A stretch of 64,000 nucleotides of DNA, from positions 1 through 64,000 of the IMG/VR virus record IMGVR_UViG_3300044535_001920. One strand, 5' to 3'. Positions 1-12,332 of this stretch are shown one piece after another. This DNA comes from a virus. Positions within the stretch are counted from its first letter, which is position 1. Each line of letters starts with the position of its first letter. The notes beneath the pieces are model-generated. The model searched no databases. It saw only the letters and a list, made by a program, of their open reading frames with translations, and was not told where the DNA came from. The position numbers were made by a program, and so were the translations under genes.

Positions 1-308
1 CCAATAATGGTATCTGGTAATTTTAGGAAATTAATTGATTCTTCCCAAGACACTGTAGAAATACCAACTGAAGAAGAAGCAGTAGTTATATCCTTCCCAG
101 ATCGTAATATATCCTTTTCTCCTGGTTGTAGTTGATGCTTTAAAAATACTCTTTCAATACCATCAAAATGCCTTTCGTGGAAATATTGAATAGCATCATC
201 CATCAGATTATCAATCTGATCATCATCTACATTGATTTCTAAAACTGGCTTTCCTAGTTGCTTGAGACAGTATTCTTTCAACTCTGCCCTAGAAGATGGT
301 TGTGCCAT
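1..308 (-). CDS. gp13: Neck protein gp13 (head completion), N-terminal part
   Basis: This is the start of a gene that runs off the left edge; about 102 residues are visible. The N-terminus (MAQPSSRAELKEYCLKQLG, then a D-rich stretch leading to AIQYFHERHFDG) is the conserved opening of the T4-like cyanophage neck protein gp13, which with gp14 closes the DNA-filled head and connects it to the tail. The start is the ATG at 308, with a TATAAATA late-promoter word about 27 bases upstream. Its place next to fibre and baseplate genes fits a T4-like virion module. Identification rests on remembered family sequence; the C-terminus is not visible. Confidence 0.8.
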   Translation of the reverse strand, partial: MAQPSSRAELKEYCLKQLGKPVLEINVDDDQIDNLMDDAIQYFHERHFDGIERVFLKHQLQPGEKDILRSGKDITTASSSVGISTVSWEESINFLKLPDTII

Positions 309-391: not shown

Positions 392-1189
392 ATGATAATA
401 TTAACAGGAAGTCGGGGATTTATTGGTAAAAATTTTCTAAAGAAAATAAATGGTCCAGTAATAGAAGTTGAAAAGGATGATGCCTATAGTTTCATTAGTA
501 ATTTTGATAAATGGAATAAAGTATCATTAATACTTCATCAAGGAGCAATCTCATCAACAACCGAAAAAAACATTCAAACTCTTCATCACAACAATGTTGC
601 CTTTACTTTATTTTTATTTGAAAAAGCAATTCAATATGGTATTCCAGTAAAATATGCCTCTTCGGCATCAGTGTATGGAAACCAAACAAAAGATTTAAAA
701 ATAATTAATCCATTAAATTATTATGCGATTACAAAATTGCAGATAGATTATTTTGTTCAAGATAATTTAGATAAATTTTCAAGTATTCAGGGATTTAGAT
801 ACTTTAATGTTTATGGAGAAGGAGAAGACCATAAAGGAGATCAAGCAAGTCCTGTTTCAAAATTTACAAAGCAAATTCGTGAGACTGGTAAATTAAAACT
901 CTTCAGGGGATCTGATAAGTTTCTAAGAGATTTTATTTTTGTCGATGATGTAGTAGATGTGGTATTGAATAATAATTCATCATCAGGAATTTATGATCTC
1001 GGAACAGGATCTCCAGTTTCATTTCAGGAAGTTGCAGAATTGGTGGTAGAAAAAGAAAAAGGGGAAATCGTATACATCGACTTCCCCGAACATCTTAAAG
1101 GTAAATATCAAGATTATACTTGCTCTGATATGAAATGGATTGGTGATTATAAATTTAAGACAATTAATCAATACTTAATGTCAAATTGA
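392..1189 (+). CDS. hldD: ADP-heptose 6-epimerase-like NAD(P)-dependent sugar epimerase
   Basis: Short-chain dehydrogenase/epimerase resembling HldD (RfaD), which converts ADP-D-glycero-D-manno-heptose to the L-glycero form. Seen: N-terminal Rossmann motif TGSRGFIG (G6, G9, G12), the Ser-rich segment YASSASVYG, catalytic YxxxK at Tyr111/Lys115, the stretch GFRYFNVYGEGEDHKGD holding a second lysine (Lys148) typical of HldD, then RDFIFVDDV and LGTG, and an HLKGKYQ segment near the C-terminus also found in HldD. At 265 residues it is shorter than bacterial HldD (about 310). It is the only convincing plus-strand gene in the window and its 3' end overlaps the convergent sulfotransferase by 22 bases. 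It could instead act on GDP-heptose or a related sugar; the HldD-like class is firm, the exact substrate is not. Confidence 0.88.
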   Translation: MIILTGSRGFIGKNFLKKINGPVIEVEKDDAYSFISNFDKWNKVSLILHQGAISSTTEKNIQTLHHNNVAFTLFLFEKAIQYGIPVKYASSASVYGNQTKDLKIINPLNYYAITKLQIDYFVQDNLDKFSSIQGFRYFNVYGEGEDHKGDQASPVSKFTKQIRETGKLKLFRGSDKFLRDFIFVDDVVDVVLNNNSSSGIYDLGTGSPVSFQEVAELVVEKEKGEIVYIDFPEHLKGKYQDYTCSDMKWIGDYKFKTINQYLMSN

Positions 1190-1950
1190 CGATAATATTC
1201 TGTCAATTCTTTACCAAGCACTTCTTCTGGTGGAGTGCTTGTTTTTTGTAACTTATTTCTAATTACGTGAAGATTTTCTATTCCCCAGGCAAGATCTTTT
1301 TCTTCTTTGCAAGTATTTTCTATATTATCAAAATTATGCTCAAAATATTCTATATCTAAAAATTTATATATTCTAGATATAGTTTCATTTGGATTATTTA
1401 CGAGGTCATTATATTCTACCATATGAATATAATCTCTATTTTTTTCTAATGCTGATAGTATTCCTTCTCTTGGATTATTTACAAAATTATAAAAAATATG
1501 TTCTGCTCTATTTGTTATACTTATTGGCAATCCCTTGTTTCTCAATGATTTATCTATAGAATTATTTAAAGAATTATTTTTTTCAATTAAGTTAATGAAA
1601 GATGCAATTACCTCTGGTACTGATCTATTTGTGCATATTATCTTTGGATTATGTATTTTTTTTACTAAATCTATTGATCCAATCCAACCACGATGCTTAT
1701 CTATTATGATAGGAAAATCTTCATTTGAATGAAAAGAATTTAATATACCTAAAGTAAGATTTTTGTTTTTTTCTTCATAATTAAATGTATATTGATTATA
1801 CACTTCTTTTAGTGTTTTTTCGCAAGAAGATAAAATATCTAATAAAGGGCTGGTTTTAGTAGCAAATATTTGAGGATTCTGATTTAGCAAACAAGTAAGA
1901 AGAGTTGAACCAGATCTTTGCATTCCACTTAAAAAATATAATTGTTTCAT
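1168..1950 (-). CDS. PAPS-dependent sulfotransferase-like protein
   Basis: A 260-residue protein with the sulfotransferase fold signature. The N-terminal P-loop-like 5'-phosphosulfate site reads SGMQRSGSTLLTCLLNQNP, close to residue 10. The 3'-phosphate region is IICTNRSVPEVIASF around residue 105. Such enzymes move sulfate from PAPS to a hydroxyl or amine of a sugar or protein. It is the last gene of the minus-strand glycan operon, 3 bases after the cupin gene, and its end overlaps the convergent epimerase. The acceptor cannot be told from sequence. Confidence 0.75.
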   Translation of the reverse strand: MKQLYFLSGMQRSGSTLLTCLLNQNPQIFATKTSPLLDILSSCEKTLKEVYNQYTFNYEEKNKNLTLGILNSFHSNEDFPIIIDKHRGWIGSIDLVKKIHNPKIICTNRSVPEVIASFINLIEKNNSLNNSIDKSLRNKGLPISITNRAEHIFYNFVNNPREGILSALEKNRDYIHMVEYNDLVNNPNETISRIYKFLDIEYFEHNFDNIENTCKEEKDLAWGIENLHVIRNKLQKTSTPPEEVLGKELTEYYRQFDIKY

Positions 1951-1953
1951 AAA

Positions 1954-2313
1954 TTAATCACCATTAATAACTCTAATACTATCTGAATCAAAATGCTGTG
2001 TAGAAAATTCAAATAATTCTGTATCTTCAAGTGCAATCATTTGATGACGAAGACCTCTATAGATGTGATATTTGTCTCCTTTCTCTAATATTATTTCTTT
2101 TGAAGATTCCATTTTGTCCGAATCGCTATACTTTAAGAGAATTTTTCCAGAGTGCAAATAAAATGTTTCATCTTTTAACTTGTGATAATGCCAGGAACAT
2201 TTTTTGCCTTTAGCAAAATAAAGAAGTTTTCCACAATACTCTTCATTATTTACAATCCATTTTTCAAATCCCCATCCTTTTGAAACAAATTTAATCTCCG
2301 AAGAATTCATCAT
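1954..2313 (-). CDS. Small cupin-domain protein
   Basis: A 119-residue single cupin. Motif 1 is HYHKLKDETFYLHSG with two histidines and the Glu expected for metal binding, followed by motif 2 around GDKYHIYRGLRHQMIAL. Proteins of this type sit in surface-sugar operons and resemble mannose-6-phosphate isomerase C-terminal or sugar isomerase/epimerase cupins. The start codon (two ATGs in a row, 2313 and 2310) overlaps the end of the HAD phosphatase gene by about 20 bases, implying translational coupling. One speculative role is the sugar isomerisation that is otherwise missing from the heptose route here. Confidence 0.7.
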   Translation of the reverse strand: MMNSSEIKFVSKGWGFEKWIVNNEEYCGKLLYFAKGKKCSWHYHKLKDETFYLHSGKILLKYSDSDKMESSKEIILEKGDKYHIYRGLRHQMIALEDTELFEFSTQHFDSDSIRVINGD

Positions 2314-2626
2314 CTTTTATTGCCTTGTCATCAATGTATATATCTGCAGAAGGTTTTCCCAAAATTAATTCATGGTATTTACAACCCCAAATATCTAACT
2401 GCATTTTTGTTAATGAATAAAATTTTTCTTTTGCTTTAACTGAATCATCTTTATATCTACCCATACCACGAGCAGTAAAATATTTAATTATATTTCCTTG
2501 ATCATATAATTCATTTATTTTTTTAATTCTATCTAATTTTGGAACACTTCCTTCGTATTTACAAGAAGTGCAATCTCCATTGGTACATATAGTACCATCA
2601 ATATCAATTACATAAATTTTTGACAT
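2291..2626 (-). CDS. HAD-family sugar phosphatase, short capsule/LPS type
   Basis: A 111-residue HAD hydrolase core. Motif I is DIDGTICT at residues 8-15 (nucleophile Asp8, acid Asp10), motif II is in YFTARG, and the acidic motif IV is IYIDDKA near residue 98. There is no cap domain. In the neighbourhood of a heptose kinase and a nucleotidyltransferase, the likely job is removal of a sugar phosphate, the step done by GmhB (heptose-1,7-bisphosphate 7-phosphatase). It is shorter than GmhB (about 190) and could serve another sugar phosphate. Its start overlaps the kinase gene by 23 bases. Confidence 0.7.
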   Translation of the reverse strand: MSKIYVIDIDGTICTNGDCTSCKYEGSVPKLDRIKKINELYDQGNIIKYFTARGMGRYKDDSVKAKEKFYSLTKMQLDIWGCKYHELILGKPSADIYIDDKAIKDDEFFGD

Positions 2627-3368
2627 CTTCTTCAGTTAAAACATAAGTTCCTGGGTGCTGCACTGCTATTGCCGATGCTTTGTTTGCTAGTAAAATTGCA
2701 TCTTCAATACTGTAATACCTTAGATAACCATATACAAGTGCTGAAAGAAAAGTATCTCCTGCACCAACTACATCATAAACATTTACCTTCTCTGCAGGAT
2801 ATAATTTATTTTTGTAAATACATCCTTGAGATCCTTTTGTTGCAATTAGATTTTTTAAATGAAATTTATTACTCAAATTATTATATTCAAAATCATTTAT
2901 TTTGATAAAACAATTTTTTTTGTCTGGTAGACAAGATTTTTTGCTATCAATGAATACGGGAATATCAGTGGACTCAACTATTTCAAATAGTTTATCTGCA
3001 GTTAAAAATCCTTTATTGTAATCAGATATCACAATCGCATCAAAATAATTAAAATCTATACATTCCGTTAGTGGTGAAATTTTATTTTCTTTATCAACTC
3101 TGAGTAGTTGTTGATTGGATTTTTCATCTATAAATCTTGTCTTTACTATTTTTTCTGAATTTGTTAAAAATTCAACAGTTAATCCAAATGATTTTAGATT
3201 ATAAAATACATTTTCTGCCATTCCTGCTCTTTTTTCTATTTTAGAAAAAATCATTACAGGAACAGGTGCTTCAGGACTAATCCTTTCACACCTGCCATAA
3301 ATGTATTCGTCTTCACAACTATCCCCTATCAATAATACTTTGAATGACTTTTGTTGAGGAGTATTCAT
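2604..3368 (-). CDS. PfkB-family heptose-7-phosphate kinase (HldE kinase half)
   Basis: A 254-residue ribokinase-fold protein matching the N-terminal half of HldE/RfaE. The signature RISPEAPVPV (residues 29-38) is characteristic of heptose kinases, followed by AGMAENV in the place of the usual glycine-rich substrate loop and the catalytic GAGDTF motif at 202-207 (Asp205). It would phosphorylate D-glycero-D-manno-heptose 7-phosphate at C1. Bacterial HldE kinase domains are longer (about 315), so this is a compact version. Its first 17 codons lie inside the end of the nucleotidyltransferase gene (50-base overlap); later starts would remove the first beta strand VLLIGD, so the long overlap is probably real. 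Confidence 0.82.
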   Translation of the reverse strand: MNTPQQKSFKVLLIGDSCEDEYIYGRCERISPEAPVPVMIFSKIEKRAGMAENVFYNLKSFGLTVEFLTNSEKIVKTRFIDEKSNQQLLRVDKENKISPLTECIDFNYFDAIVISDYNKGFLTADKLFEIVESTDIPVFIDSKKSCLPDKKNCFIKINDFEYNNLSNKFHLKNLIATKGSQGCIYKNKLYPAEKVNVYDVVGAGDTFLSALVYGYLRYYSIEDAILLANKASAIAVQHPGTYVLTEEDVKNLCN

Positions 3369-3729
3369 CTATCCTATCGAAAAACTTTAATTCTTTTGCA
3401 TACTGCGATCCTATAACTGGTTTATCTTTCCAATCAGATCCTACTACCATTATATCAGGTCTATAAAATTTGACAAGTTCTTCTAGATCTTCATCGGAAT
3501 CAAATGTCCTAACTTCATCAACGTGATATAAATTTGCTAACATAAATGCACGATCTCGGAGAGAGTTAATGGGTCTTATTGGACCTTTCTTTTCTTTAAC
3601 TCTCTCATCAGAATCAATTGCAACAATCAAATGATCCCCAAAAGACTTTGCATACTCAAATAATAAAAGATGCCCTGTATGCAGGACATCAAATGTCCCA
3701 TTAACAAATACTTTTTTCATTTGGTACAT
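3319..3729 (-). CDS. Sugar-phosphate nucleotidyltransferase (HldE C-terminal half)
   Basis: A 136-residue cytidylyltransferase-fold enzyme. It has the nucleotide-binding motif VNGTFDVLHTGH (His17 and His20 form HxGH), the conserved RPINSLRDRAFML segment, and YSSTKVI (123-129) in the place of the family's second ATP motif. It matches the C-terminal domain of HldE, which joins AMP to heptose 1-phosphate; glycerol-3-phosphate cytidylyltransferase is the alternative. It comes before the kinase gene in transcription order, the reverse of the domain order in fused HldE. Start: ATG at 3729, or the second ATG at 3720, which begins right at the conserved domain. Confidence 0.8.
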   Translation of the reverse strand: MYQMKKVFVNGTFDVLHTGHLLLFEYAKSFGDHLIVAIDSDERVKEKKGPIRPINSLRDRAFMLANLYHVDEVRTFDSDEDLEELVKFYRPDIMVVGSDWKDKPVIGSQYAKELKFFDRIDEYSSTKVIQSIIDRG

Positions 3730-5365
3730 AAATTAGTTTTTTTATTTCTGGAAGATACATATATTCAATTTCACTATTTCTTAGTGTGTTAAATGCATCA
3801 TCTAATGTTTCAACGATAGTATCTCCAGCAAGATTGAATGATGTATTGAATAAAATAGGAACACCAGTTAGCTTATGAAACTCTTCAACTAATGTATAAT
3901 AATTTGGATTTTGTTTTTTCTTTAATGTTTGAATTCTACAAGTTCCATCTACGTGAGTTATTGAAGGTATAAGTTTTCTTTTATTTTCCCATACATCAAC
4001 AGCATACATCATAAAAGGACTTTCCTCAAGTCTATCCATATCAAACCATTCAGTGCAATTTTCCCATAATACAGTTCCAGCAAATGGTCTCCACCATTCT
4101 CTTTGCTTAACTCTATTGACTATTTCTTTACCATTTTCCACTCTTGGATCAAAAAGTATAGATCTATTTCCTAATGCTCTTGGACCAGATTCTGACCTTC
4201 CTTGATAGATTGCAACTATATTTCCATTTGAAATTAATTCTGCAACCTCTTTTGGTTCAATAAATCTTTCGGATTCATTAGATTCCAATTCGTAATTATA
4301 CTGTATTGGCTGTCCTAGATATAAAGTTTCTAGATTTAATGATTTTGGTTCTATATTGTTTTTTATACACTGATTTATATAAGTATATTTTGAAGATCCT
4401 ACTGTAATTCCATCATCAGCACAAAGAGGATCAATGTAAATATTAATATTTTTTGGTAATTTTTTTAATAATTTATAATTTGCTACACAATTCAAAAAAC
4501 ATCCACCAGTTAAAACTACATTAGTTTTATTTGTTAATTCCACAGATTTTCTAACAAGATCTGTTATATAATTCTCATAATTTTGCTGTAATTTATAAGA
4601 AAGATTTGAAAGTTTTGAAAAATTTTCGTTAATATCTTTAAATGATGAAATGTAAGGATACTTCAAAAACATAGAACATACATCTTTAATATGATTAAAA
4701 TTTGATAATTTGAATAATGATTCATTTGCACCCTTATTTAAAATCATTGGTTTTATTTCATGATCAAATTTACCATATGAGGACATCCCCATTACCTTTC
4801 CCTCCCCATGTGGCCATCCCATAAAATATGCAATAGCAGAATATGCCATACCACAACCTATTCTTTTTTCTTTTTGTACATATTCTGGGGAATTTTCCGG
4901 AACTAACTCATTGTTGTAACCAACAACTGTTTTGTATATACAGTTAATATCAACTTTTGAATTGAAATCATATATACTTTCATTTTCTTTTCCATATAAC
5001 TTATCTGATCCTGCACTATCAACTACTAAACAAACTCCATCATCAAACCCAGAATTTAAAATGGAGCAGTATGCGTGTAAGTTGTGATGATACCGAGAAT
5101 GGTCTATCCATTCTTTTACTTTTACTTTATTTTTTTCTAGTATTTTTTTATATGGACCAAAATATAAATTATTATTATTTAAGTAACTATAAATGCAATA
5201 ATCTATTGAATTAGTATAATTTTTTATTAAATCAATTGAATAAGATAATTCGGTATCATGCTTTATATGAGTTAATCGTTCTTCTTTTAAATGAAGAACG
5301 ATTTCATTATCTTTCAATAAACAAATTGACGCATCATGCGTAATATTTAAACCTAAAATCCACAT
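3701..5365 (-). CDS. NodU/CmcH-family carbamoyltransferase, copy 2
   Basis: A 554-residue O-carbamoyltransferase, which moves a carbamoyl group from carbamoyl phosphate (through a carbamoyl-adenylate) to a sugar hydroxyl. Seen: an N-terminal Kae1-like domain beginning MWILGLNITHDAS, the metal-binding HxxxH at His93/His97, DSAGS, and the C-terminal YrdC-like signature GRSESGPRALGNRSILFDPR near residue 390, followed by RPFAG and PILFNTSFNLAGD. Full family length. It lies one base after a second carbamoyltransferase gene (5367-7058) but is visibly more AT-rich, so the two may have been acquired at different times. Confidence 0.9.
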   Translation of the reverse strand: MWILGLNITHDASICLLKDNEIVLHLKEERLTHIKHDTELSYSIDLIKNYTNSIDYCIYSYLNNNNLYFGPYKKILEKNKVKVKEWIDHSRYHHNLHAYCSILNSGFDDGVCLVVDSAGSDKLYGKENESIYDFNSKVDINCIYKTVVGYNNELVPENSPEYVQKEKRIGCGMAYSAIAYFMGWPHGEGKVMGMSSYGKFDHEIKPMILNKGANESLFKLSNFNHIKDVCSMFLKYPYISSFKDINENFSKLSNLSYKLQQNYENYITDLVRKSVELTNKTNVVLTGGCFLNCVANYKLLKKLPKNINIYIDPLCADDGITVGSSKYTYINQCIKNNIEPKSLNLETLYLGQPIQYNYELESNESERFIEPKEVAELISNGNIVAIYQGRSESGPRALGNRSILFDPRVENGKEIVNRVKQREWWRPFAGTVLWENCTEWFDMDRLEESPFMMYAVDVWENKRKLIPSITHVDGTCRIQTLKKKQNPNYYTLVEEFHKLTGVPILFNTSFNLAGDTIVETLDDAFNTLRNSEIEYMYLPEIKKLIYVPNEKSIC

Positions 5366-5366
5366 A

Positions 5367-7058
5367 TTAATTCGGAACTCTAACTATTTTTTGAATTTCG
5401 GGAAGATAGAGATATTCAATATCACTTCTTTGTAGTGTGTCAATTGCATCTACGATAGTTTCAACAAGAGGATCTCCACCCAAATTGAATGAAGTATTAA
5501 AAAGGATAGGAACTTCACTAATTTTTTCAAAGGCACTGATTAGATTATAATAGTGCTCGTTTTGTTCTTGAGTTACTGTTTGAATACGGCAGGTTCCATC
5601 AACATGAATGACTGAAGGAATTTTCTCTTCCACTCCAGGTAAACAATCAACAGCATACATCATATGTGGTGATTCCTCACGGCCAGCAAGATCAAACCAA
5701 TCATTGACGTTTTCTTTCAGAATTGAACAAGCAAAAGGACGGAAGAACTCACGACGTTTTACTTTGTTTACAATATCCTTACCATCCTTAATAGTTGGGT
5801 CAAATAGAATAGAACGATTGCCCAGTGCTCTAGGACCACCTTCGGAACGACCTTGAAAGATGGTTACAATAGTTCCTTCCCGAATCAGTTGTGCAACTTC
5901 ATCATAAGAAGTATCGGAAACTTCTAGACCTTCTAGATAATCTTCATAGGTTTCTGGATCATATTGAGGTCCATAATAAATTGAAGTCTGAGGACTCATA
6001 GGTGCCTCCAGGTCATTCATCTTAGCATAGATGTATTTTGCAGCACCAATTGATGTTCCACCATCATGGGAAATTGGTTCGCAGTAAATGTTAAGATCTG
6101 GGAAAGTCTTCAAATACTTATAGTTGGCAACACAGTTTAGTCCATATCCACCACAAACAACAATATTTGTTTCACCAGTTTCTTCGTGTGCTTTGCGAAT
6201 CAATTCAATCATACGATTTTCAGTATCTCTTTGAACCGCATATGCCATATCTTTTTGGATTTGAGTATATTCACCTTTCTTATGATTTTTGGAATCTTCA
6301 AATAAGACAGGGAATCTTTCATAGTTGATACGTGATCCATTGGGATAATTGGGCACAAAAACTTCACGGTTTGCCCATTTACCTCTAAACAACTCTGGAA
6401 GATCTAAGTTTTCCTTTCCATATGGAGAAAGGCCCATAGTTTTTCCAGCATCAATACAAGAAAAACCACAATATTCAGTAATTGCCTCGTATGTTTTGGT
6501 GAGACCTGGATATTCAGTCAAGAAGTACTTTTCATCACCACCCATATCAAGAATACCAACAGGTTCTTTTGTGCCAAGATGCTTATATACAGTATCGAAC
6601 TCTAAAGGATACTTTGCCTTAAATATAGTTTCAAACTCGTATGCAACACCCGGGAAAGCATCCCCCTGCAGAAAACTTCCAGCACCATCGGCAATTACAC
6701 AAGCAGCAGTCTCAAATCCCGAATTCAAAAATGCACAAGAAGCGTGCAATTCATGATGAATAGTATCAATAAAGTGAGTTTGATACTCAAACTTTTTGCG
6801 AGATATTTTTCTAATCCATCCTTGATATAAATCTTCACCAGTCCAATCCATTTCTGGACCATGACGATGGGTATGACAAACTACCAAATGATCAATGTGA
6901 TCAACATACTCAAATACTTTTAATAATCCAAGAAGAGGTGTTCCGTCATGCTTCCATCTAGAAAGTCTTTCCTCTTCAACATAAAAGATTACTTTGCCAT
7001 CAATAAGCAAAGTGGTGCTAGCATTGTGTCCACGAGCACAGGAAACAATAATACTCAT
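5367..7058 (-). CDS. NodU/CmcH-family carbamoyltransferase, copy 1
   Basis: A 563-residue paralogue of the next gene. The N-terminal domain starts MSIIVSCARGHNAST. The metal-binding HxxxH is His101/His105 (IHHELHASCAF), followed by ADGAGS, GGYGLNCVANY, and the signature GRSEGGPRALGNRSILFDP around residue 400, then RPFACS and PILFNTSFNLGGD. A strong Shine-Dalgarno (GGAGG) stands 7 bases before the ATG at 7058. Its codons carry more G/C than its neighbours, unlike copy 2. Role: O-carbamoylation of a sugar, probably on the same glycan that the heptose genes supply. Confidence 0.92.
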   Translation of the reverse strand: MSIIVSCARGHNASTTLLIDGKVIFYVEEERLSRWKHDGTPLLGLLKVFEYVDHIDHLVVCHTHRHGPEMDWTGEDLYQGWIRKISRKKFEYQTHFIDTIHHELHASCAFLNSGFETAACVIADGAGSFLQGDAFPGVAYEFETIFKAKYPLEFDTVYKHLGTKEPVGILDMGGDEKYFLTEYPGLTKTYEAITEYCGFSCIDAGKTMGLSPYGKENLDLPELFRGKWANREVFVPNYPNGSRINYERFPVLFEDSKNHKKGEYTQIQKDMAYAVQRDTENRMIELIRKAHEETGETNIVVCGGYGLNCVANYKYLKTFPDLNIYCEPISHDGGTSIGAAKYIYAKMNDLEAPMSPQTSIYYGPQYDPETYEDYLEGLEVSDTSYDEVAQLIREGTIVTIFQGRSEGGPRALGNRSILFDPTIKDGKDIVNKVKRREFFRPFACSILKENVNDWFDLAGREESPHMMYAVDCLPGVEEKIPSVIHVDGTCRIQTVTQEQNEHYYNLISAFEKISEVPILFNTSFNLGGDPLVETIVDAIDTLQRSDIEYLYLPEIQKIVRVPN

Positions 7059-7070
7059 AATTTTACCTCC

Positions 7071-8165
7071 TCAAGATTTAATGTCGTTTATTTCTAAGAT
7101 TTGTTCTATTGGTTTCTTTTTATTTGATAATTTTGGTTTTTGAAACCCATTAAAATTTGTTATTGGTAAATTTGATATGGGATTTGATTTCGCAACGTCA
7201 AAATTACCAGATAAACCATTCAATTTTAATGATTCGTTAGTAACTTTACTTATTCCTATTTTATCTCTAATTGATTTTAATATTTCTTTAATTTTATCAT
7301 CGGATAAAACCATGAGATCTTCATTATTTCTATCTCTACACTCATCAAAAGTCATTCTAATTGGACTATATTTTCTTTTGTTCTTTCCATTATCAATGAC
7401 ATAAAAATTTTTTTCATTTGGGTAAGAAATATTCTCTGGGTATGTTGACCCAACTACAATTGTTGACGGTTTATTTAGTGCGTAAGAAATATGTTGACCT
7501 ACACTATCACACCCCAGAAAATAATCGGCAGCATTTATAATTCCTGCCCATTGAGGTAAGCTAACATTTTGGGGCATTGCTATTCCGAGTTCTTGCCAAT
7601 TTGGTATTTCTATCTGGGACATCAATATTACACCATAATTTTTTTTCAACTCTTCAATTATTTTAATAACATTGGCAACTTCAAAACTTCTTCCACTTGC
7701 ATCAAATATAAAATTTCTTTCTGCTTGAACACTACTTCCGAATGGTTGAAAAATAACAATCTTATCTTTTTTTGTTACTTCTCTAACTTCGTTAACGATA
7801 TTATGTCCTGTAATTTGTTCAGATTTATTTAATTCTAAATTTATTTTTTTATTTTTTGGTACATCTGTTAACTCATTAATAATAATATCAAATGCTTGGA
7901 TTAAATTGCATTTTTGATTAAAGTATGCATTTAATCTATATGGTTCTGGAGATATAATTTCTTTATCTTTTAAATGCTTTTCAAAAAGATCTTTATGATT
8001 TACTGGATAAACTTTATCTCGTAAAATTTTACTACAAGAATACAGTTCATGCCATCCCTCAGAAACAATTACAAAATCTTCGTTTTTTTCTGCGTATGAT
8101 TCTAATGCTGGCATAGAACAAAGAACTCTCCCTGCACCACCATTAATAAAAAATGCCTTATTCAT
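7071..8165 (-). CDS. Glycosyltransferase family 9-like (heptosyltransferase type)
   Basis: A 364-residue protein with a GT-B architecture resembling heptosyltransferases. The N-terminus MNKAFFINGGAGRVLCSMPAL carries the Gly-rich loop and a following PAL, as in GT9. The C-terminal half has VILMSQ, the segment AADYFLGCDSVGQHISYAL matching the GT9 xDSGxxH nucleotide-sugar motif, and STIVVGSTYP. It would transfer a heptose-like sugar from its nucleotide donor. It is the first gene of the unit that holds the heptose-synthesis genes, so donor supply and transfer are co-transcribed. The C-terminal about 60 residues are outside the family core. Confidence 0.75.
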   Translation of the reverse strand: MNKAFFINGGAGRVLCSMPALESYAEKNEDFVIVSEGWHELYSCSKILRDKVYPVNHKDLFEKHLKDKEIISPEPYRLNAYFNQKCNLIQAFDIIINELTDVPKNKKINLELNKSEQITGHNIVNEVREVTKKDKIVIFQPFGSSVQAERNFIFDASGRSFEVANVIKIIEELKKNYGVILMSQIEIPNWQELGIAMPQNVSLPQWAGIINAADYFLGCDSVGQHISYALNKPSTIVVGSTYPENISYPNEKNFYVIDNGKNKRKYSPIRMTFDECRDRNNEDLMVLSDDKIKEILKSIRDKIGISKVTNESLKLNGLSGNFDVAKSNPISNLPITNFNGFQKPKLSNKKKPIEQILEINDIKS

Positions 8166-8220: not shown

Positions 8221-8784
8221 TTAATTCATCCAATATTCTGGATATTCTTTTATATTTTTATCAAAAATATCCATAATTAAATGAATTCTATTTTCTGTAC
8301 TATGATTTTCCACACTGTGAGAATTTAAATTATTAATTTCATAAATTTTTCCAACTTTCATATTTTCTCTCATATTACCAACAGTAAAAAATACATCTTG
8401 ATTTGTCTTAATTGGAATATGCAATCTATGACCTAACTCAAAGTATCTACTTCCACCATCAGTATGAGCATCAATCATACCCTTTGGTTTAAGGTTAACA
8501 ATTAACGCAGTATAATCTTTTATTTCATAAAAATTTGAAAGAACTTTTAAATATTGATCAATAAAAGGTTTATAAAAGTCAAACATTTCATAATTTACAA
8601 ATTTAAAGTTATTAAAATCCAAATTTTTTACGTGTCTCAAACGGATTGTTTCAGTAAATCTATGAACCTCATATACTTTCTGTCTAGTGGTATCAATCTT
8701 CCAATGACCTTTATCTATGGAATCTAGCAATAAATTGGATAACTCTGAATCAATATCACATAGTTCCTTAATCTCAAATGTCAT
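8221..8784 (-). CDS. Fe(II)/2-oxoglutarate oxygenase, aspartyl/asparaginyl beta-hydroxylase-like
   Basis: A 187-residue cupin-fold dioxygenase. The iron triad is visible as HxD at His107/Asp109 (MIDAHTDGG) and His156 (NSHSVEN); Arg167 (RIHLIMD) sits where 2-oxoglutarate is held. HRLHIPI between them is typical of the aspartyl/asparaginyl hydroxylase family. It would hydroxylate a protein residue or a small molecule or sugar. Its start overlaps the end of the upstream sulfotransferase gene (ATGA). Neighbouring fibre and glycan genes suggest the substrate is a virion protein or its glycan, which is inference. Confidence 0.78.
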   Translation of the reverse strand: MTFEIKELCDIDSELSNLLLDSIDKGHWKIDTTRQKVYEVHRFTETIRLRHVKNLDFNNFKFVNYEMFDFYKPFIDQYLKVLSNFYEIKDYTALIVNLKPKGMIDAHTDGGSRYFELGHRLHIPIKTNQDVFFTVGNMRENMKVGKIYEINNLNSHSVENHSTENRIHLIMDIFDKNIKEYPEYWMN

Positions 8785-9476
8785 AATTCATATCCAAAAA
8801 AATTAATTTCAGTTTTAACTGCTTGAAATATTTCTTTTCCTATTTTAAACACATTATCTGGAATTTTTTTATCAAAGTTTGTAATTTTATTTTCTTTGTA
8901 TTGTTTTACTGGACTACTTTCTAAATCTAGATCAAAATCCTTTATTTCTAAATCTTTAAAAATTATATTAATTTTATCTTTATCGTAAATCATATCTTCA
9001 TATTTTATTACTTTATCAGTATATGAAAAATAATTTTTATACTGTTCAAAAAAACAAGATGCAACGTGCCCACACGCACGATCTATAGAAATATCTGGTC
9101 TTAATTTTAAAATAGAAGTAACAATTTGGTATGGATTTCTTACTTGAATAATAAACTTTGAATTTTCAAAATGCTTTTTGAGCATATGTGCTCTTATAAC
9201 ATTTGGGGGGGATTTCTCAACTTTAATTAAATCTTTATCCCAGTATAAATTCCAAAGATTTTTAATGGAATCCCAATCGTAATTTTTTTCTAAAGCAAAA
9301 TCATGATATCGTTCAGTAAACATGTAAGGACAGTTTAATGCAAATGGATTTGGACCAGCAAATCCTTGTATAAATTGACCCTCATCAGGCAAAGTTGTTG
9401 TGTATTTTGATTGCCTTATTTTCTCGTAAAGGATACTAGACCCAGAATTATTAACTGATAATAAAAATAAATGCAT
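8781..9476 (-). CDS. Second sulfotransferase-like protein
   Basis: A 231-residue protein with sulfotransferase features: an N-terminal P-loop variant SVNNSGSSILYEKI at residues 7-20, and the 3'-phosphate site FIIQVRNPYQIVTSIL near residue 115, a form typical of sulfotransferases. A KYEDMIYD segment follows, as in the family. It is clearly divergent from the sulfotransferase at 1168-1950. It follows the cysteine-rich gene by 18 bases, with a weak TATAAATG late-like word at 9496-9503, and is coupled to the oxygenase gene. Substrate unknown. Confidence 0.68.
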   Translation of the reverse strand: MHLFLLSVNNSGSSILYEKIRQSKYTTTLPDEGQFIQGFAGPNPFALNCPYMFTERYHDFALEKNYDWDSIKNLWNLYWDKDLIKVEKSPPNVIRAHMLKKHFENSKFIIQVRNPYQIVTSILKLRPDISIDRACGHVASCFFEQYKNYFSYTDKVIKYEDMIYDKDKINIIFKDLEIKDFDLDLESSPVKQYKENKITNFDKKIPDNVFKIGKEIFQAVKTEINFFGYEL

Positions 9477-9494
9477 AATATAAAATAGTATAAA

Positions 9495-10577
9495 TCATTT
9501 ATAACAAATGCAAACCATTCCTGCTCTTCCCATATCTCCACAACCTCCATAGTTATTGCTCTTGGATATATTTGGTGCTCCACCTGCTCCGGGAATTTGA
9601 AGGTATCCACAACAAGCACTAAAACAAACTCCACGGCACTGCCCACTGTAAGAAAAACAACATTGGGATGTTGATTCAAAACCATAAATTGGTGGATGTA
9701 TAAAATATCCGTTTGCAGCAGTATCCCAACATGCTCTATTCCATATCCCCCTAATTCCATAAACTAATGCATTAGATGTAGTTGCACCAAAATAACTTGC
9801 TCCTGGAACATAAGGTATCTCACCGCAACTAGCACAAGATCCTACAGAACAAAAATGACTTCCACCATTACACATAGTCCAACCAGCATAATTTGAAGCA
9901 ACTTGTGCCATTCTTCTTGGGTTTCTTCTTCCGTAAGATATTGACCAAATTCCCATTCTTCCTTGCCCACCATTAGCACAGAAATTTATTAATCCAGTTC
10001 CTTGTACGTATGAAGGGCATCCTGGAAATCTATTAGCAGCAAATCTACAAGGGTAACAAGCAAGAGCACATCCAGAACAAATTGTATAAGTTTGTCCTGC
10101 AGTAACTGGAATAATTACTGACGCATATGCTCCTGTTGAACCAAATGGATTAGAAGAGCAACAAGCACCACCACTGCCCCCACCACCAGCACCCCAAAGT
10201 TGGAATCTGGCACAAGTTACACCAGCAGGAACTGTCCAAGAACAAGATCTACCATAATTAAATTGTGCGTTTCCTGCACATCTACAAACTTTAAAACCAG
10301 CAGTCCATCCAGAACCAGTAGGAATGCAAGCCCAAAGAGCAGTTTGTGCAGGGTTTCTAAGTAACGATGGTTCTATTGTAGAAGTCCAGCAAGATGCTTC
10401 TGGACCTATTGCAGCAGCAGTTGATTGTAATGCTGATACTTGTGAGCACAATGTACTCAAGCAAGTATTGCTATTGGATAAGCAAGTTGATCTAATTGGC
10501 ACACAAGCAGTTTTTTCTATGCATTGTGTTATTAAATATGCTTCTGCATTTGTTGCACTATATCTTAATACATCCAT
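9495..10577 (-). CDS. Cysteine- and glycine-rich adhesin-like protein, copy 2
   Basis: A 360-residue protein with 33 cysteines (about 9%). Residues 1-75 are helical-looking with few glycines. From about residue 100 a glycine-rich beta domain begins with SWTVPAGVTCARFQLWGAG, a form common in phage and bacterial glycine-rich surface domains (WxVPxGVTxxxxxLWGAGGGGG). CC and CxxC pairs recur (ACC, SGCALACYPC, SQCC, SACCGY). The C-terminus GGCGDMGRAGMVCICYK matches that of the paralogue at 11274-12332. No signal peptide is seen. I take it for a tail-fibre tip or adhesin; the function is not established. Cysteines in an intracellularly assembled virion protein are unusual. Confidence 0.7.
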   Translation of the reverse strand: MDVLRYSATNAEAYLITQCIEKTACVPIRSTCLSNSNTCLSTLCSQVSALQSTAAAIGPEASCWTSTIEPSLLRNPAQTALWACIPTGSGWTAGFKVCRCAGNAQFNYGRSCSWTVPAGVTCARFQLWGAGGGGSGGACCSSNPFGSTGAYASVIIPVTAGQTYTICSGCALACYPCRFAANRFPGCPSYVQGTGLINFCANGGQGRMGIWSISYGRRNPRRMAQVASNYAGWTMCNGGSHFCSVGSCASCGEIPYVPGASYFGATTSNALVYGIRGIWNRACWDTAANGYFIHPPIYGFESTSQCCFSYSGQCRGVCFSACCGYLQIPGAGGAPNISKSNNYGGCGDMGRAGMVCICYK

Positions 10578-11273: not shown

Positions 11274-12332
11274 TTATTTGTATGAAACACAAACCATTCC
11301 CATTCTTCCTGCATCTCCAGCACAGTTTAATGCACCACCGCACTTAAATCCTGCCCAACCACCTGCACCTGGTATCTGCATAAATCCATTTACAGCAGCT
11401 CTTGAACAACCTTGAATGTCATTGGTGGCCAAACAACAGGTGCAGCAAGAATTTGATGGGAAACCATAAATTGGAGGATGTCCTACGCAAATACCACCAC
11501 TACTATTTACACCCATCAATCCAAATGAACCTCTTATTCCATATACTGTTCCTCCTGTCGCAGTTCCAAAAAATGTTTTACATGAAGAAATCATTGGCAT
11601 TATATTATCACCGCAGGAATTAACTAAAGCATTATAGTTCCAACAAAAATCTGATCCAGCATTACACAAACATCCAAACATTACGCAGTAACCACAAGTT
11701 GCACCAATTATACCTCTAGTAATTGCTTCACAGAACATACTACCTTCACCACCTTCTGCACAGAAATTATTTAAATTGCATCCGGTTGCACAAGATGGAC
11801 ATCCATCAGCATCATTTTGTGCTCTACAAGCATAACAACAGTTGGCACATCCAGCACAAAGGTTGTACGTCCATCCTGCAGATACTGGTATTATAACTGA
11901 TGCATATGCACCTGTTCCTCCAATAGATGATCCACCACAGCAGCAACCAGAACCTGTCCCAGCACCTGCACCCCAAAGTTGGAATCTGGCACAAGTTACA
12001 CCAGGAGGAACTATCCATGTGCAGGAGGAACCGCATCTAAAGTTTCCAGAAGTGTCGCACACTTTAAAACCAGCAGTCCATCCAGTTCCTTCTGGTATTA
12101 AACACCATACATGTGCTTGATTTGGTCCCGCATTTGCGACTAAACCTACAGCATTTGCTGCAATTTGTGATTCCGCACAAGAACAGCAAGCAAGTTGTGT
12201 AGTAATAGAACCTTGAACAGCAGTTATAGATGAATTAAGATTATTAATACAAGTTTCTAATCCAGCAACTGCAGTTCTTGTTGGCTTAATATTTGCATTT
12301 AATGCATTATATGCTAAAACATCTATTGTCAT
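11274..12332 (-). CDS. Cysteine- and glycine-rich adhesin-like protein, copy 1
   Basis: A 352-residue paralogue of the protein at 9495-10577, with 38 cysteines (about 11%), including CC, CCC and TCCTCC-like clusters. It shares the central motif TWIVPPGVTCARFQLWGAG, GGTGAYASVIIPVSAG, HPPIYGF, FMQIPGAGG and the end GDAGRMGMVCVSYK; the N-terminal 90 residues differ more. No transmembrane segment or signal peptide is visible. It starts 3 bases after the preceding 90-residue gene ends, so the two are co-transcribed. The role is probably a fibre tip or surface adhesin. Disulfide bonding or metal binding by the many cysteines is possible but not shown. Confidence 0.7.
   Translation of the reverse strand: MTIDVLAYNALNANIKPTRTAVAGLETCINNLNSSITAVQGSITTQLACCSCAESQIAANAVGLVANAGPNQAHVWCLIPEGTGWTAGFKVCDTSGNFRCGSSCTWIVPPGVTCARFQLWGAGAGTGSGCCCGGSSIGGTGAYASVIIPVSAGWTYNLCAGCANCCYACRAQNDADGCPSCATGCNLNNFCAEGGEGSMFCEAITRGIIGATCGYCVMFGCLCNAGSDFCWNYNALVNSCGDNIMPMISSCKTFFGTATGGTVYGIRGSFGLMGVNSSGGICVGHPPIYGFPSNSCCTCCLATNDIQGCSRAAVNGFMQIPGAGGWAGFKCGGALNCAGDAGRMGMVCVSYK

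Follow-up and report, generated by a model that had tools for sequence, protein, structure and literature searches.

A phage-borne gene block probably for ADP-heptose synthesis, with a cupin as the candidate substitute for GmhA

The heptose gene block

The stretch analysed here (the window) comprises positions 1 to 64,000 of IMG/VR record IMGVR_UViG_3300044535_001920, a 64,602-base fragment of a marine T4-like phage whose kin are the cyanomyoviruses P-SSM2, S-CAM1/3 and S-SSM7. Near its left end lies a block of sugar genes that probably encodes a complete, phage-borne ADP-heptose pathway, with a small cupin replacing the SIS-fold isomerase GmhA. The initial annotation, made without database searches, had described an operon-like and nearly complete heptose-nucleotide pathway lacking only GmhA, and all the open reading frames (ORFs) it listed are present and intact at their listed coordinates.

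Four minus-strand genes, which overlap one another end to end by 23–50 bases, make up the centre of the block. They code for an HldE domain II-type nucleotidyltransferase (3319..3729, 136 amino acids (aa); TIGR02199, rfaE_dom_II, E 2.5e-32), a PfkB kinase of the HldE domain I type, the predicted heptose-7-phosphate kinase (2604..3368, 254 aa; TIGR02198, rfaE_dom_I, E 3e-45), a small HAD phosphatase proposed to be the heptose-1,7-bisphosphate 7-phosphatase (2291..2626, 111 aa; EcbF/BcbF, E 6e-9) and the cupin (1954..2313, 119 aa; PF07883), the proposed sedoheptulose-7-phosphate isomerase. The gene for an HldD-type ADP-glyceromanno-heptose 6-epimerase (392..1189, 265 aa; TIGR02197, E 9.4e-64; PDB 1eq2 HldD, E 1.9e-46) is on the plus strand, convergent with a sulfotransferase gene. 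Because of this opposite orientation the heptose gene set is not literally one operon. The last gene of the set, also on the minus strand, specifies a GT9-fold glycosyltransferase (7071..8165, 364 aa), a probable heptosyltransferase.

Searches of profile and structure databases support the assignments of HldD, the HldE-type kinase and nucleotidyltransferase, and the GT9 heptosyltransferase fold, as do conserved catalytic residues and structure prediction; the profile matches, apart from that of GT9, are far stronger than expected by chance, and those to heptose-enzyme profiles all score under the NCBI equivalog cut-offs, as is common for diverged phage proteins. In HldD, residues S116, Y140, K144 and K178 (E. 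coli Ser116, Tyr140, Lys144 and Lys178) are invariant in 8/8 phages; Tyr140 and Lys178 are the catalytic pair. The catalytic Asp264 of HldE (GAGD) is invariant in the kinase. The nucleotidyltransferase scores 112 bits against TIGR02199 versus 63 for glycerol-3-phosphate cytidylyltransferase, and its HxGH motif is also invariant. With a family profile, the HAD protein matches the capsule biosynthesis protein 9iqw (E 1e-17), and its DxD motif and late Asp-Lys are invariant.

The sequence match of the GT9-like protein is weak (PF01075, E 0.001, under the Pfam cut-off), and a profile search of PDB sequences gave no match, whereas structure comparison did. Its AlphaFold model has a predicted local distance difference test score (pLDDT) of about 90 or more across most of residues 1-310, and the best Foldseek neighbours are WaaC, a Veillonella GT9 protein, WaaF and the protein heptosyltransferase TibC. 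A DSxGQH motif, to be compared with the D[S/T]GxxH-like donor motif of GT9, is invariant in 33 sequences. The residue conservation in HldD and the kinase, together with this fold, upholds the earlier reading of the block as an ADP-heptose pathway.

The cupin and the first step of the pathway

No GmhA (PF13580) was found in the window's own record of 64.6 kb. The same search gave no match in nine complete cultured cyanophages and 14 further viral records of up to 327 kb, with controls detected. The gap that was noticed in the window therefore extends to 23 whole phage records, and also to the 160 viral loci described below.

Viral loci were collected with two baits, and close relatives are included within each set, a point to be held against the counts. 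In the 80 loci retrieved with the kinase, the nucleotidyltransferase is found in 76, the cupin in 74, the HAD protein in 55, HldD in 54, GT9 in 39 and GmhA in none; such counts are biased by the bait, and the cupin-bait set serves as the independent check. In the six kinase loci that lack a cupin, the contig breaks off beyond the kinase, on its downstream side, after about 2.4 kb or less. With the cupin as bait, 57 of 80 loci are longer than 14 kb, and among these the kinase and the nucleotidyltransferase each occur in 54, the HAD protein in 53 and HldD in 12; none of the 80 has GmhA. Cupin, kinase, HAD protein and nucleotidyltransferase thus make up the conserved core, which supplies exactly one gene for every predicted step between sedoheptulose 7-phosphate and ADP-D-glycero-D-manno-heptose; HldD would add an optional fifth step. 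In many phages (L205-L284) this core has no HldD nearby, and for these ADP-D-glycero-D-manno-heptose may therefore be the end product. Another viral group, more distant, combines the cupin, kinase, nucleotidyltransferase and HldD but lacks this small HAD protein; three of its loci (L100, L102 and L104) carry a GmhB-like HAD, and the same three have a fusion of the cupin with the nucleotidyltransferase. L202-L204, three distant phage records in which an HldE-like kinase occurs, have neither cupin nor GmhA within the stretches examined and are uninformative as a reciprocal case.

The cupin was modelled with AlphaFold2 at a pLDDT of 96, and all six top PDB matches in Foldseek are D-lyxose isomerases, some of them as fructose and mannose complexes. 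By sequence profile, its relatives include D-lyxose isomerases and mannose-6-phosphate isomerases along with further kinds of cupin; Lyx_isomer matches 37/76 members and MannoseP_isomer 24/76. The window protein is a single-domain cupin with an HxH...E...H pattern of metal ligands, H42, H44, E49 and H90; in an alignment that includes some QxH relatives, the last three are invariant and H42 is nearly so. This metal-site pattern and the predicted fold are closest to those of D-lyxose isomerase and the cupin-type mannose-6-phosphate isomerases, from which the phage protein differs in forming a separate clade linked to a heptose kinase, and in its predicted substrate, sedoheptulose 7-phosphate. 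Cupin-type isomerases catalyse the conversion of fructose 6-phosphate to mannose 6-phosphate, and the conversion of sedoheptulose 7-phosphate to D-glycero-D-manno-heptose 7-phosphate has the same stereochemistry at C1 and C2.

Heptose-linked cupins keep the HxH(x4)E motif and a later His, while unlinked relatives have QxH. Among the loci examined, a kinase lies within 4 kb of 104/110 HxH cupins and 1/41 QxH relatives, a comparison that includes the kinase-bait loci and of which the cupin-bait sets are the unbiased part. A tree built from 124 columns, of which only the main split is relied on, places the HxH, heptose-linked cupins together on one side of a branch supported at 100/99.

When bacterial genomes were scanned for the cupin, two Patescibacteria were found in which it forms the C-terminus of an HldE-type kinase. 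Homologues of GmhB, HldC, HldD and heptosyltransferase are neighbours of both fusions, and neither genome has a match to PF13580. We then considered 380 Patescibacteria genomes, of which 16 have an HldE-type kinase scoring at least 200 bits. Six of these carry the cupin, fused as kinase-cupin in G001 and G229, as cupin-kinase in G177, G199 and G312, and adjacent to the kinase in G021. The other ten carry a SIS-type GmhA, adjacent in eight, fused in G135 and elsewhere in G121. The two proteins occur together at none of the loci (Fisher p=1.2e-4, genomes treated as independent). The cupin occupies the same position upstream of the kinase as GmhA does elsewhere, and its fusions to the kinase occur in both domain orders. 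No PF13580 match was found genome-wide in G001, G002, G021 and G229, and those in G177 and G199 are weak and fall inside frames of about 600 aa that resemble GlmS. The initial annotation had put the cupin forward as a speculative stand-in for GmhA; as a putative isomerase it is now strongly supported by the fusions, the replacement in the GmhA slot and the fold.

Two further observations were made in Patescibacteria genomes. In G135 (L168:880-2493) the heptose-7-phosphate kinase is joined to GmhA itself, a counterpart of the cupin fusions. In G142 (L285:9415-9804) an orphan HxH cupin lies amid housekeeping genes, with no kinase within about 7–9 kb.

Proposed pathway and alternative explanations

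From these features we infer a route that would draw sedoheptulose 7-phosphate from the Calvin cycle and pentose phosphate pathway of the host. The cupin, in place of GmhA, would convert it to D-glycero-D-manno-heptose 7-phosphate, which the HldE-type kinase would phosphorylate at C1 and from which the small HAD protein would remove the C7 phosphate. The HldE-type nucleotidyltransferase would then form ADP-D-glycero-D-manno-heptose, HldD would epimerize C6 to give the L-glycero-D-manno form, and the GT9 protein would pass the heptose to an acceptor. The NodU-like carbamoyltransferases and the sulfotransferases of the block may modify the sugar or the acceptor. Compared with the known bacterial route (GmhA, HldE, GmhB and HldD), the kinase, nucleotidyltransferase and epimerase are homologous and the GT9 protein has the heptosyltransferase fold, but HldE is split into two genes, a small EcbF/BcbF-type HAD stands for GmhB, and the cupin stands for GmhA. 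The cupin is likely to represent a previously undescribed class of sedoheptulose-7-phosphate isomerase, metal-dependent and unrelated to GmhA, that is widespread in phages, fused to the kinase in Patescibacteria, and completes ADP-heptose synthesis in phages whose hosts are reported to be heptose-free.

Several points weigh against this interpretation, besides the bait bias and the close relatives in the locus sets. The D-lyxose isomerase-like fold is common to many cupins, and KdgF, CapF and oxalate decarboxylase rank close behind in the Foldseek results. Relative to domain I of E. coli HldE the kinase lacks about 60 residues, although its catalytic ones are kept, and the HAD protein is of the EcbF/BcbF capsule-phosphatase type, not GmhB. 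For a few HxH cupins no kinase lies close by (L014-L016, L020 and L133); of the six Patescibacteria genomes with the cupin, G312 encodes a distant SIS protein at another site; and a single phage-like locus (L019) holds both the cupin and a GmhA-like SIS protein. The latter is on a phage-like contig binned with Acidimicrobiaceae, where the cupin, kinase and nucleotidyltransferase (L019:8777-12343) lie beside the GmhA-like protein, a HAD-nucleotidyltransferase fusion and an epimerase, perhaps as two heptose routes in one phage.

It is unlikely that ADP-heptose is made with a host GmhA performing the first step, the cupin having another task in the sugar pathway, such as that of an accessory epimerase or of a domain with a regulatory or binding role. 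Phages commonly rely on host enzymes for some steps, and WbuC- or RmlC-type cupins occur in many sugar clusters, with weak WbuC matches in the present case. However, the cupin is more constant than HldD across the viral loci, it is fused to either the kinase or the nucleotidyltransferase, and it stands in the place of GmhA in bacteria whose locus has no GmhA, four of the genomes listed above having no PF13580 match anywhere. A host GmhA is also less expected since cyanobacterial lipopolysaccharide (LPS) has been reviewed as lacking heptose (PMC4390846), an argument drawn from LPS chemistry.

Less likely again is a different activated sugar, with the kinase, nucleotidyltransferase and epimerase acting on a hexose or another heptose and the cupin being a mannose-6-phosphate-type isomerase. 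While the cupin has mannose-6-phosphate isomerase domains among its relatives and the nucleotidyltransferase also resembles glycerol-3-phosphate cytidylyltransferase, the HldD-specific Lys178 (HKG motif) is invariant, the rfaE models outscore their alternatives, and the best structural neighbours of the GT9 protein are heptosyltransferases or GT9 members. Loci of the Candidate Phyla Radiation with the same cupin also carry true homologues of GmhB, HldC, HldD and heptosyltransferase. The idea that such genes are headful filler was weighed in 2010 for cyanophage LPS genes (PMC3037559), and their patchy distribution would suit decaying cargo or filler without function; this is very improbable for the present set, as the ORFs are intact and overlapping, the catalytic residues are invariant, and the set has been retained repeatedly, in two genomic settings and across a diversity of phages.

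If the block does encode the ADP-heptose pathway with the cupin as its isomerase, the long-noted cyanophage 'LPS gene' set would become a defined five-step pathway with a new candidate enzyme class, and phages and Patescibacteria would share a second, non-homologous solution to the first committed step of ADP-heptose synthesis. It would also predict that heptose is added to virions, or to hosts with LPS that is itself reportedly free of heptose. Both virion glycosylation and a change of the host surface remain candidates, because the block lies in a tail-fibre region and the GT9 protein is similar to both WaaC and TibC. The acceptor may be a protein given the second likeness, as TibC, of the TibC/AAH protein O-heptosyltransferases, is among the top families matched by the model; the phage protein is only about 11% identical, and the WaaC match is slightly better.

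Virion setting and related cyanophage clusters

The proposal that the block lies within a T4-like virion region agrees with its surroundings. To the left is a fragment of the gp13 head-tail adaptor gene (3..308, minus strand; phrog_211, E 1e-13), and to the right are genes for tail-fibre-like proteins and baseplate wedge subunits. LPS-gene clusters are known in cyanomyoviruses such as P-SSM2, and the same gene set was found in cultured members, so the presence of the cluster is not new. It is near tail-fibre genes in P-SSM2, S-CAM1, S-CAM3, S-SSM7 and Sf-FS3, and inside glycosyltransferase clusters in S-SM2, P-TIM68, S-T4 and Sf-CH8; S-T4 and Sf-CH8 have no HldD of this family nearby. The same genes form the cyanomyovirus set T4-GC 302-308 (P-SSM2, S-SM2, S-SSM7, S-CAM1/3, P-TIM68, S-T4 and Sf-FS3), and P-SSM2 and S-CAM1/3 share the gene order, the opposite strand of HldD and the adjoining tail-fibre genes. 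What sets the window phage apart from these is a block that holds two carbamoyltransferases and also a sulfotransferase; its DNA aligns in short pieces with an identity of only about 75%.

In Sullivan et al. (2010), T4-GC 304, 305, 307 and 308 belong to a list of seven LPS genes that co-occur, whose functionality was left open (PMC3037559), and a 2020 announcement described a cyanophage with a heptose kinase, a 'phosphoheptose isomerase' and HldD (PMC7378029). In the annotated cyanophage records consulted, the 'phosphoheptose isomerase' of GenBank is the small HAD protein (T4-GC 306), and 'cysteine dioxygenase' is the name mostly given to the cupin (T4-GC 307). An isomerase role for the HAD protein was rejected on account of its DxD motif and its likeness to the EcbF/BcbF phosphatases. 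For the cupin, Pfam, PDB profile and Foldseek comparisons favour sugar isomerases and oxalate-type cupins over a cysteine dioxygenase. Both labels (P-SSM2 L001:15728-16409 and equivalents), which have spread via PHROGs and RefSeq, are probably wrong. A literature search that covered few subscription papers found no link between a cupin and sedoheptulose-7-phosphate isomerase; the pathway was already known, and the cupin in place of GmhA is new as far as could be seen. Genes for a transketolase-like protein, an alcohol dehydrogenase and a class II aldolase are also part of the S-SM2 cluster (L004:7978-15978) and may belong to a further unusual sugar route.

The remaining genes of the block, all on the minus strand, code for putative modifying enzymes. 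Two NodU/CmcH-type carbamoyltransferases (3701..5365, 554 aa, PF16861 (Carbam_trans_C), E 3.5e-60; 5367..7058, 563 aa, PF16861, E 4e-59) lie between the nucleotidyltransferase and GT9 genes. In Pseudomonas, the carbamoyltransferase WapO has a putative 7-O-carbamoyl-heptose function in a heptose-containing LPS core (PMC8005017); this precedent of a carbamoyltransferase tied to heptose, compared by its described function, suggests a carbamoyl-heptose as a product modification here. The sulfotransferase that converges with HldD (1168..1950, 260 aa; PF13469, Sulfotransfer_3, E 5e-17) may be an accessory for sugar or protein modification, and a second, weaker sulfotransferase-like protein (8781..9476, 231 aa; PF13469, E 1e-5, slightly under the cut-off) is a further accessory candidate.

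Between the GT9 gene and this second sulfotransferase is the gene for an accessory Asp/Asn beta-hydroxylase-like protein (8221..8784, minus strand, 187 aa; PF05118, E 2e-13). Asp/Asn or prolyl hydroxylase-like genes recur near the heptose genes, in the window and also in S-SSM7 (L003) and Sf-FS3 (L005), a pattern compatible with protein hydroxylation followed by glycosylation. Two similar-looking Cys- and Gly-rich proteins of 360 and 352 aa are encoded in the tail-fibre region (9495-10577 and 11274-12332) and are possible adhesins or glycan acceptors.

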